This document shows, in pieces, positions 23,638 to 46,296 of a DNA stretch of 48,254 nt (the stretch's first letter is position 1; each line of letters opens with the position of its first letter). Under the pieces are notes generated by a model that worked only from the letters and a program-made list of their open reading frames with translations, did not search any database and was not told the DNA's origin. A program made the position numbers and the translations under genes. The stretch comes from Clostridia bacterium (GTDB lineage: Bacteria > Bacillota > Clostridia > Christensenellales > Aristaeellaceae), in NCBI GenBank assembly GCA_024404245.1, contig JAKSQH010000005.1, positions 1-48,254 on the forward strand, given 5' to 3'.

Positions 23638-24234
23638 GTGGAGATCAAAACAGCGGAATTTATTACATCCATGGCGGACTACGGCAACTTCCGCGGAAAG
23701 GGGCTGCCGCAGATTGCCGTGGCCGGAAAAAGCAATGTGGGCAAAAGCACAATGATCAACTCGCTCTGCAGGCAGAACAAACTGGCACGAACCAGCGCGA
23801 CGCCGGGCAAGACGCGCCTGCTGAATGTATTTCTGCTGAACGGGTCCTTTCACCTTATCGACCTGCCCGGCTACGGTTTCGCGAAGGTTGATAAAAAGGA
23901 AAAGGAACGCTGGGGCGTGATGATGCAGAACTATTTTGAACAGGCGGAAGAACTGGAGCATGTGCTGTGCCTGGTTGACATCCGTCACGAGCCGACGCAG
24001 GACGATATTCAGATGAACCGCTTTCTGCGCGAAATGGGGATTCCGTTTACGGTGATCGCGACCAAGGCGGATAAGATCAGCCGGGGAGCGAGAAGCAAAC
24101 AACTGGCCCCGATATGCCGCGCTCTGCTTGTTCAGCCGTGGGAGATCATCTGCTATTCCGGTGAGGACGGAACGGGCCGGCCGGAACTGCTTCATAAGAT
24201 AGAAGAAATACTTGCAACCGGTATCGAACGGTAG
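23638..24234 (+). CDS. engB: Ribosome biogenesis GTPase EngB (YsxC)
   Basis: A 198-residue TrmE-Era-type GTPase needed for assembly of the large ribosomal subunit. GTPase motifs: G1 GKSNVGKST, G2 region ARTSATPGKTR, G3 DLPGYGFA, G4 TKAD and G5 YSGEDGTG. Length is the family norm. The start is a GTG at 23638, with GGAG of the lon end as ribosome site, so it depends on the lon transcript. A promoter for the next unit lies inside its last codons. Confidence 0.95.
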   Translation: MEIKTAEFITSMADYGNFRGKGLPQIAVAGKSNVGKSTMINSLCRQNKLARTSATPGKTRLLNVFLLNGSFHLIDLPGYGFAKVDKKEKERWGVMMQNYFEQAEELEHVLCLVDIRHEPTQDDIQMNRFLREMGIPFTVIATKADKISRGARSKQLAPICRALLVQPWEIICYSGEDGTGRPELLHKIEEILATGIER

Positions 24235-24240
24235 TATAAT
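24212..24240 (+). promoter_or_regulatory. Promoter of the zinc-ribbon/phosphoesterase pair
   Basis: TTGCAA and a perfect TATAAT are 17 bp apart, overlapping the engB stop codon. It leaves a leader of about 170 nt before the ATG at 24422. Confidence 0.65.
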
Positions 24241-24260: not shown

Positions 24261-24394
24261 GGTGCCGGAAGAATGGCCCGAATGTGGCGCTGAAATCGCC
24301 CGGAGTGGCGGCTGATACGCAGTTTGTGGCTTGAAAGTGGCATGGTTGTGGTGAAACACATATCAACAGCAGTTGTTCGGTGCCACAAAGTGGT
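24261..24394 (+). repeat. Helically phased array of WGTGGY boxes in a leader
   Basis: Six exact matches to WGTGGY start at 24283, 24304, 24325, 24336, 24347 and 24389, with steps of 21, 21, 11, 11 and 42 bp. One- or two-mismatch versions fall on the same lattice at 24261 (GGTGCC), 24272 (AATGGC) and 24379 (GGTGCC). All are direct repeats on the plus strand between promoter and start codon. It contains no coding sequence that I can support. The spacing near multiples of 10.5 bp suggests a protein or protein ring binding one face of the DNA; an RNA role is the alternative. Confidence 0.7.
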
Positions 24395-24421: not shown

Positions 24422-24853
24422 ATGAAATTTGTACTGTGCCCCCGCTGTGAACTGAACTATATGCAGGTTGGCGATAAATACTGCAAAGTGTGCATGCGCG
24501 AGATCAAAGGCGAGTTTTCCCGCGATGAGGTGGAACTCTGCTCTGTGTGCAACGAAGCGCCGGCACTGCCCGGAAAGGATGTATGCCTGTTCTGCCTGCG
24601 GGAAATGAACGGTGAAACCATGCAGACGAAGGATGATTCGGATGCCGGTGAAACGATTGATACGGAAAACATCGGCAATATGGATTCCGTAAGCAACATG
24701 GATGAGATCATTCCGGAAATGGATGAAGGTGACATCGACTTCGGTGAAGAAGAAACCGATGAAGATGAAGATAAGGAAATGAGCCTGGAGGCCGTTCGCG
24801 ATGACGAGATGCGTGACGATGAGGCCGCCGACAAGGAACCGGAGGAATTCTGA
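24422..24853 (+). CDS. Acidic protein with two zinc ribbons
   Basis: A 143-residue protein of unknown function. Residues 1-60 hold two four-cysteine zinc sites: C6-C9-C21-C24 and C40-C43-C55-C58, both CxxC...CxxC. Residues 64-143 are almost wholly acidic (Asp/Glu with Met and Asn), probably disordered. The acidic tail argues against tight nonspecific DNA binding and for protein contact or nucleic-acid mimicry. Start ATG at 24422 after GGAGG at 24410-24414. It is followed after 33 bases by a metallophosphoesterase gene, and its leader carries the WGTGGY array. No family is recognised. Confidence 0.75.
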   Translation: MKFVLCPRCELNYMQVGDKYCKVCMREIKGEFSRDEVELCSVCNEAPALPGKDVCLFCLREMNGETMQTKDDSDAGETIDTENIGNMDSVSNMDEIIPEMDEGDIDFGEEETDEDEDKEMSLEAVRDDEMRDDEAADKEPEEF

Positions 24854-25591: not shown

Positions 25592-25616
25592 TTTTAATAC
25601 GCGCAATTGTCATATG

Positions 25617-25645
25617 GATCCGCAACCTGTGCGGGTCTTTTTTTT
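25617..25645 (+). terminator. Terminator before the dcw cluster
   Basis: GATCCGCA/TGCGGGTC (one G-U) with a 5-base loop is followed by eight T. Confidence 0.9.
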
Positions 25646-25782: not shown

Positions 25783-25811
25783 TTGCGCAGATGAATACGA
25801 TGTTGTATGAT
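25783..25811 (+). promoter_or_regulatory. mraZ (dcw cluster) promoter
   Basis: TTGCGC and TATGAT are 17 bp apart. Upstream, 25680-25740 is very AT-rich, with ATATTACAAA repeated at 25701 and 25712 (11-bp step), like an UP element. An imperfect 8-bp inverted repeat GCAATGCT/AGTATTGC (25766-25786) overlaps the -35 box. Confidence 0.65.
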
Positions 25812-25822
25812 ATGTGTGGAAA

Positions 25823-25870
25823 AGGGGTAGACATGACCTAAAATAGGGTGAAAAGTGGTAGAAAGGTGGC
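25823..25870 (+). promoter_or_regulatory. Putative MraZ operator boxes
   Basis: Boxes AGGGGT (25823), TAGGGT (25844), AGTGGT (25854) and GGTGGC (25865) are spaced 21, 10 and 11 bp. MraZ is known to bind short G-rich direct repeats at one-turn spacing in front of its own gene. The last box contains the apparent ribosome site of mraZ. Confidence 0.6.
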
Positions 25871-25877
25871 GATAAAC

Positions 25878-26372
25878 GTGGCTGAGGCACAGGATGAACC
25901 GAAAACGAAGCTGCGCTTTATCGGCTCCTACAACCACACAATGGACGCTAAGGGCCGTATGGTGATCCCGCAGGTTTTCAGAGATCAGCTGGGCGACACC
26001 TTCTGTATTGCCCCGTCGCTGGATTTCAGCTCAATCGCGATCTATCCGAACGAAAAATGGGAAGAACGGAGTCACGCGTATGAGAAGCTCGGAAAACTGA
26101 ATCCGGGGCTTAATCAATACCTGGAACAGTTCTACGCCATGAGCTACGACAACCAGACCTGTGACGGACAGGGCCGCGTGCTGCTGCCGGCCAATCTCCG
26201 GCAGAAAGTGCTGAAGGATGACCGCGAGGTCGAAATTACCGGGGCGCACGATTATGTGCGCGTGGTCACCGCTGTGGCTGCCGCCGACGCGTGGGAGAAG
26301 TTCAGAAGCGAGCTGCCTGATCTGCTGGAAATGATCGGCCGGCTTGAACAGCAGAACGCGGACAGGGAATGA
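25878..26372 (+). CDS. mraZ: Transcriptional regulator MraZ
   Basis: A 164-residue regulator made of two SpoVT/AbrB-type half-domains. The first carries SYNHTMDAKGRMVIP (DxxGR) and the second TCDGQGRVLLPANLR (DxxGR); such proteins form rings that bind direct repeats and repress the dcw operon. Start GTG at 25878 is chosen: AAGGTGG lies 8 bases upstream and the family begins close to LRFIGSYNHT. A longer in-frame GTG at 25848 lacks a ribosome site. In most bacteria rsmH follows directly; here it does not. Confidence 0.93.
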   Translation: MAEAQDEPKTKLRFIGSYNHTMDAKGRMVIPQVFRDQLGDTFCIAPSLDFSSIAIYPNEKWEERSHAYEKLGKLNPGLNQYLEQFYAMSYDNQTCDGQGRVLLPANLRQKVLKDDREVEITGAHDYVRVVTAVAAADAWEKFRSELPDLLEMIGRLEQQNADRE

Positions 26373-46186: not shown

Positions 46187-46192
46187 ATGCGC

Positions 46193-46280
46193 AGCGCTGG
46201 GGGAGCCGCGTACGGCGGCTGAGAGGGCATCGGTCCGACCCTTGGAACCTGTGTAGGTTATCCTACCGTAGGGAAGCGGT
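46193..46280 (+). ncRNA. TPP (THI-box) riboswitch aptamer
   Basis: Contains the conserved pyrimidine-sensor CTGAGAG (46219-46225), the pyrophosphate-sensor GACCCTTGGAACCTG (46237-46251) and TAGGGAAG (46269-46276). P1 is closed by CGCT/AGCG. It is followed by a terminator whose 5' arm can pair instead with GGGAAGC (46271-46277) of the aptamer. So thiamine pyrophosphate should cause premature termination and switch thiT off. Confidence 0.95.
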
Positions 46281-46296
46281 TTTGAACGGGGTTCAG

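Follow-up and report, generated by a model that had tools for sequence, protein, structure and literature searches.

A conserved, helically phased GTGG array in the leader of a zinc-ribbon gene as a likely operator and candidate MraZ target

The stretch of DNA analysed here, the window, is 48,254 bp long and corresponds to contig C45 of a genome assembled in 86 contigs and 65% complete. The gene order at the locus is lon, engB, zinc-ribbon gene, metallophosphoesterase gene and mraZ. The zinc-ribbon gene (24422..24853, plus strand) encodes a double zinc-ribbon protein of 143 residues, the C-terminal half of which is acidic; its double zinc-ribbon matches in Pfam and NCBIfam all lie under the model cut-offs. 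The protein is present in 49 of 61 genomes searched and, within its own genus, in 36 of 37, the window's genome counted. The metallophosphoesterase gene (PF00149; 24887..25591, plus strand) follows, with a terminator-like stem behind it (25616-25638). The longest mraZ frame (PF02381; 25848..26372, plus strand) starts at GTG 25848, with an alternative GTG start at 25879; the frame is found about 1.45 kb downstream, close to the 1.5 kb given in the initial annotation. A sequence search of the PDB with the window's MraZ returned no match at E 0.001. Elsewhere the window carries a TPP riboswitch (46189-46291; Rfam RF00059, 62.9 bits).

Transcription of the zinc-ribbon gene is served by a sigma-70-type promoter match, TTGCAA-17-TATAAT (24212..24240, plus strand), and the TATAAT element is found in 36 of 36 leaders of the genus. 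The segment between this promoter and the ATG at 24422 had been described as a noncoding leader. The ATG is confirmed, and the promoter match itself overlaps the 3′ end of the engB frame.

The leader contains six exact WGTGGY boxes, all on the plus strand, as follows: TGTGGC (24283..24288), AGTGGC (24304..24309), TGTGGC (24325..24330), AGTGGC (24336..24341), TGTGGT (24347..24352) and AGTGGT (24389..24394). The successive steps are 21, 21, 11, 11 and 42 bp. Re-reading the sequence reproduced the positions and steps of the initial annotation exactly; the degenerate copies that it placed at 24261, 24272 and 24379 are weak and add little, as GGTGCC, at the first and third of these positions, has two mismatches to WGTGGY and AATGGC, at the second, has one. 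When six boxes are placed randomly in this leader, equal coherence at 10.5 bp is reached in 2 of 100,000 placements (p = 2e-5, for that period only), and allowing any period from 6 to 16 bp gives p = 6e-4 (3 of 5,000 placements). A shuffle test for chance phasing had been proposed in that annotation, and the phased boxes are confirmed.

The orthologues make the reality of the phased boxes decisive, beyond the window's leader alone. The genus set consists of all 36 leaders found, none omitted, from genomes that are mostly MAGs. Absence of phased boxes from orthologous leaders had been named as a result that would count against the array; at least three GTGG boxes are kept in 29 of the 36. The 220 GTGG pairs in these leaders have a best period of 10.5 bp, with R 0.767, compared with maxima of 0.205 at 10.5 bp and 0.265 at any period in 2000 random placements, a null that ignores relatedness. 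Leaders without a full array include those of G003, G006 and G010, which are only 45–47 bp long, hold at most one GTGG and have no array. One box is present in the leader of G031, two off-lattice boxes in that of G025, and two boxes each in those of G007 and G014.

A second set was assembled for sequence divergence. It holds 36 leaders sharing less than a quarter of their 8-mers, drawn from 43 leaders longer than 100 bp. The 43 are 33 genus leaders and 10 loci chosen by eye for visible boxes among 80 named loci (Clostridia, Clostridiales and Christensenellaceae bacterium titles; mostly MAGs, many from ruminant samples), and the final 36 retain 27 genus leaders and nine of the 10 added loci. 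In this sequence-distinct set, which is biased upward because the 10 added loci were chosen for visible boxes, 213 of 243 GTGG pairs lie no more than 1.6 bp from a multiple of 10.5 (38% expected; z 18). Of 47 4-mers, GTGG has the highest pair-weighted score in these leaders, and AAGT, part of the same box, is slightly above it in raw cosine (0.82). The coding control gives 0.19 versus 0.80 for the leaders.

Even multiples of the helical turn, in particular 21, 42 and 84 bp, dominate the leader spacings. Among the 243 pairs, 39 are near 21 bp, 35 near 42, 18 near 63, 36 near 84 and 22 near 105, with fewer at other multiples: six near 10.5, 16 near 31.5 and 17 near 52.5. Divergent loci display the pattern as clean ladders, with steps of 42, 42 and 42 bp in L130, 42, 42, 42 and 21 bp after the -10 in L120, and 42, 42 and 20 bp in L142. 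Neighbours 11 bp apart, as in the window, occur only in G000, G028 and G024 among 36 leaders, and a single 10-bp pair occurs in G026. The boxes are strongly biased in strand, with 129 GTGG versus 13 CCAC in 36 leaders. They start 12–171 bp past the start of TATAAT, and 12 of the 36 leaders have a box at 12–15; in leaders without such a box, the first boxes, where there are any, lie further downstream. With respect to the -10, the lattice is phased differently in different leaders, the internal phase being kept. Boxes are gained and lost on the lattice, and the sequence between them changes.

To summarize, there is good support for an operator array in the DNA that is conserved and in helical phase. 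The initial annotation expected such phasing where a multimeric protein wraps DNA along one face, and the genus-wide 10.5-bp lattice supports that expectation well: very probably, a multimeric protein reads this lattice as DNA.

We propose the following arrangement. GTGG boxes, nearly all in one orientation and at whole, mostly even, helical turns, would allow one multimeric DNA-binding protein, ring- or filament-like, to contact one face of 100–150 bp of B-DNA. The contact would be made downstream of the promoter and would control transcription of the zinc-ribbon–metallophosphoesterase unit, most likely by repression or buffering, a direction that we infer. The most likely protein would be MraZ, encoded just downstream, the own operator of which has GTGG boxes about 41 bp, or four turns, apart. 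Taken whole, an operator array bound by a multimeric protein that is most likely MraZ is the account towards which we lean, if only modestly.

The two kinds of site compare as follows. The mraZ operator and leader of the window (25811..25869, plus strand) has GTGG at 25816, 25855 and 25866, that is, 39 and 11 bp apart. In the genus, 34 of 34 mraZ leaders have a GTGG pair 37–45 bp apart, as found with a filter of that same range; the spacing is 41 bp in 29 of them, 40 in three and 39 in two. The mraZ boxes of an independent set of 21 loci outside the genus (50 boxes) share the flank AAA-GTGG. The flanks of the leader boxes (positions -4 to -1 and +4 to +9) fit these mraZ boxes better than do those of other GTGG at the same loci (p 1e-12) or those of non-box positions within the leaders themselves (p 6e-7). 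Even so, the median flank score of the leader boxes, while above background, is negative (-1.85). A comparison with a motif from mraZ promoters had been suggested in the initial annotation. The spacings differ, the mraZ operators using 10 and 41 bp and the zinc-ribbon leaders preferring 21, 42 and 84 bp. Many mraZ operators of the genus (e.g., L033 and L040) also have a partial palindrome, GGGA-N5-TCCC or GGGT...ACCC, between their GTGG boxes, similar to a GG-N9-CC unit of the zinc-ribbon leaders that is described below.

Profile searches in both directions bear on the identity of the protein. Profile R1, built from ten gap-free zinc-ribbon leaders, was run over 41 whole genomes at E ≤ 1 and gave 69 matches: 29 zinc-ribbon leaders, eight mraZ operators and 32 other places. 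The leader matches, 10 of which are training sequences, were assigned from where they lie or from which gene follows (G062-G064 among them), and the window's own leader is missed. Outside the leaders, then, 8 of 40 matches fall on mraZ operators, those of G002, G003, G004, G005, G014, G021, G030 and G031. Seven of the eight are in register with the GTGG pair, and the eighth, in G014, falls at the same place as the best match there of the reciprocal profile R2. Judged by the sizes of target and genome, the chance of a random match landing on an mraZ operator is estimated at a few in 100,000; individually, the eight matches are weak (E 0.20–0.42). Of the tests on MraZ as the reader of the array, this one is the most telling.

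R2, built from 18 mraZ operators and searched in 37 genomes, gave 57 matches, of which 36 are mraZ operators, that of the window included (E 5.6e-6). Only one of the 21 others is a zinc-ribbon leader, in G014 (E 0.28), which makes R2 nearly negative for the leaders. When R1 was run in 200 genomes of the order, 36 matches were obtained at E ≤ 0.05 versus 10 expected, the E-values being rough. Two are zinc-ribbon leaders and 34 are others, one of which (L342, in G066, from another family) lies before an mraZ homologue (tblastn E 4e-20). Among the 28 new loci inspected, L340 has GTGG boxes 33 and 42 bp apart, and most have no lattice. The support that MraZ gains from R1 is independent but weak. 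The suggestion that the leader could be a second MraZ target has indirect support: box flanks and the R1 matches on mraZ operators speak for it, and the differing spacing, the R2 outcome, the three leaders with no array and the occurrence of some arrays behind genes speak against it.

A different multimeric protein may bind the array, such as an AbrB-like protein, a nucleoid or wrapping protein, or a dimeric repressor reading a partly palindromic GG-N9-CC. The mraZ operator would then share part of the site, either through action of the same protein there or through convergence. The near-silence of R2 on the leaders fits such a protein, as does a 21-bp unit of the form GTGG-N9-CC: 51 of 125 boxes have CC precisely at +13/14, whereas a CC at any place within four bases is seen for 13% of leader positions. 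Arrays at other kinds of site point the same way. Ladders of GTGG at 41–42 bp steps lie in AT-rich intergenic DNA of the window's own genome (L241; G000:C50:1943-2046, minus strand) and of G028 (L242; G028:C8:27328-27429, minus strand). Both are between terminator-like stems near uvrC, not at a promoter, and the two have diverged in sequence with their spacing kept. An unrelated gene codes for a small membrane protein starting with YRRY. Of 30 regions upstream of it, 11 contain two GTGG at a distance of exactly 42 bp, several of the 11 being close relatives, and such a pair is present in G025 as well; the loci are L255-L284 and L246. There is at most one GTGG in 18 of the 30, one of which (G027) may be misplaced, and in four genomes (G011, G012, G013 and G021) a terminator stem and a -10 coincide, by eye, with the boxes. 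The same protein may also act on the YRRY gene. Against a protein other than MraZ, the core AAA-GTGG and the one-strand orientation are those of the mraZ boxes, and the leader-trained R1 picks out mraZ operators as described above. On balance, we judge a protein other than MraZ to be possible but rather doubtful.

Further GTGG clusters were seen at gene ends and between genes. L289 (G021:C34) and L292 (G029:C11) are intergenic clusters that adjoin what is apparently one same gene, the boxes of L289 being AAGTGGG or AAAGTGGG, 42 and 53 bp apart. Other ladders follow the metallophosphoesterase gene and surround a terminator-like stem, in L141 (near 5625; 42 and 41 bp, the first box within the end of that gene) and in L147 (near 5572; 42, 42 and 21 bp); the zinc-ribbon leaders of these relatives show no array.

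Counts over whole genomes dismiss phased GTGG as a general regulon signal. In 41 genomes, three GTGG 10–11 bp apart occur 33 times versus 41 for the reversed-pattern control, GTGG at 21 + 21 bp 130 times versus 234, GTGG at 42 + 42 bp 160 times versus 256, and AAGTGGR pairs 41–42 bp apart 10 times versus 22. By eye, many of the matches, for 42 + 42 bp among the places listed, look repetitive or coding. A closer look at 800 kb of G022 (22% of the genome, with its zinc-ribbon and mraZ loci outside; 60.6 kb intergenic by a crude ORF mask) showed no clear excess of phased GTGG pairs in intergenic DNA (mean cosine 0.125, 50 pairs). Among five segments viewed by eye, one repeat appears twice, and the other three segments look coding at the boxes. 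As phased GTGG showed no excess over whole genomes, the targets seem to be few. The scan for three GTGG 10–11 bp apart also brought up DnaA-like triplets, such as GTGGATAACCTGTGG, elsewhere. The DnaA box consensus is TGTGGATAA, and the leader boxes, which are without its AT-rich half, were rejected as DnaA boxes.

The boxes might instead belong to an RNA leader that is structured or bound by protein, since they are transcribed as part of the leader and most are on its sense strand. The window's leader folds somewhat better than its shuffles (z -1.7; 7 of 200 shuffles are as good), and a short GGGA/TCCC hairpin is often possible at the last box. Conserved covarying stems, another finding that would have told against the array, were sought with RNAalifold. 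Applied to a MAFFT alignment (not a structural one) of 18 of the 36 leaders, it predicts not a single consensus pair; nor does the leader match Rfam at the gathering threshold. The excess of pairs inside boxes is weak, consisting of one position pair (z 3.4) that is mostly G-C co-occurrence. The period of the boxes is that of B-DNA, and boxes come and go on a lattice with the sequence between them unkept. An RNA origin is accordingly improbable.

It is more improbable still that the 21-bp spacing is a coding artefact of heptad repeats or reflects shared ancestry without function: 21, 42, 63 and 84 are all multiples of 3, and some frame is open in 22 of 33 leaders, mostly antisense, but among shuffled leaders the average is 17 and the highest count 24, any single frame is open in at most 11 of 33, the leaders of G032 and G034 have stops in all six frames, sequence-distinct leaders of differing promoter phase still keep the lattice, and a coding origin is unlikely because spacings also in use, such as 11, 20, 31, 41, 53 and 83 bp, break frame. 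The arrays of L122 and L133, in which 21-bp GTGG steps upstream of the zinc-ribbon gene read by eye as an antisense, Cys-rich repeat of seven residues, were set aside as coding.

Returning to MraZ as the preferred reader, we put forward, tentatively and as a distinct possibility, that MraZ or a similar ring protein reads an extended lattice. Over more than 100 bp, the protein would touch a GTGG once in two or four turns and so wrap or tile the DNA, beyond the compact 10-bp repeats that it also reads. In this lineage, it would use the lattice at a few loci: the zinc-ribbon leader, mraZ, the YRRY gene and some gene ends. If so, the phase of the boxes, and not the sequence between them, would be the operator code. 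In most bacteria the division and cell-wall cluster begins with mraZ, and to our knowledge few direct MraZ targets are established outside its own promoter. The array is a candidate second target, tied to a conserved, uncharacterised zinc-ribbon gene. A natural and evolutionarily varied lattice with exact helical spacing is, moreover, a ready test of a toroidal regulator on long DNA.

Two kinds of known system invite comparison. In helically phased multi-operator arrays, as in AraC/Lac looping and AbrB-type wrapping, the sites are in helix phase, and it is this phase that is conserved, not the intervening sequence. The zinc-ribbon leaders are like these in having helix-phased sites and in keeping the phase but not the sequence between. 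They differ in the same-orientation four-base core, in the preference for even turns and in lying almost wholly in the transcribed leader.

The second system is MraZ itself. The MraZ sites described in the literature consist of GTG repeats and lie downstream of the -10; the MraZ boxes of the dcw promoter in E. coli, Mollicutes and Burkholderia are short G-rich direct repeats, the complex being an octameric toroid, and the Burkholderia site has four contiguous 7-nt repeats with 3-nt spacers (PMC7761207; PMC8475190). In the paper library searched for MraZ, PMC8475190, PMC5138195 and PMC7761207 included, no paper on an array like the present one came up. The main spacings of the leaders are 21, 42 and 84 bp instead of three or four contiguous repeats at 10 bp, and because this contiguity is missing the array is not a classical MraZ operator. 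Like the dcw boxes so described, the boxes of the zinc-ribbon leader are short, G-rich direct repeats on one strand with a GTG(G) core, just downstream of the -10. Unlike them, they are spread over 100–150 bp at 21, 42 and 84 bp, with only occasional 11-bp neighbours, and they precede a gene other than the head of the dcw cluster.
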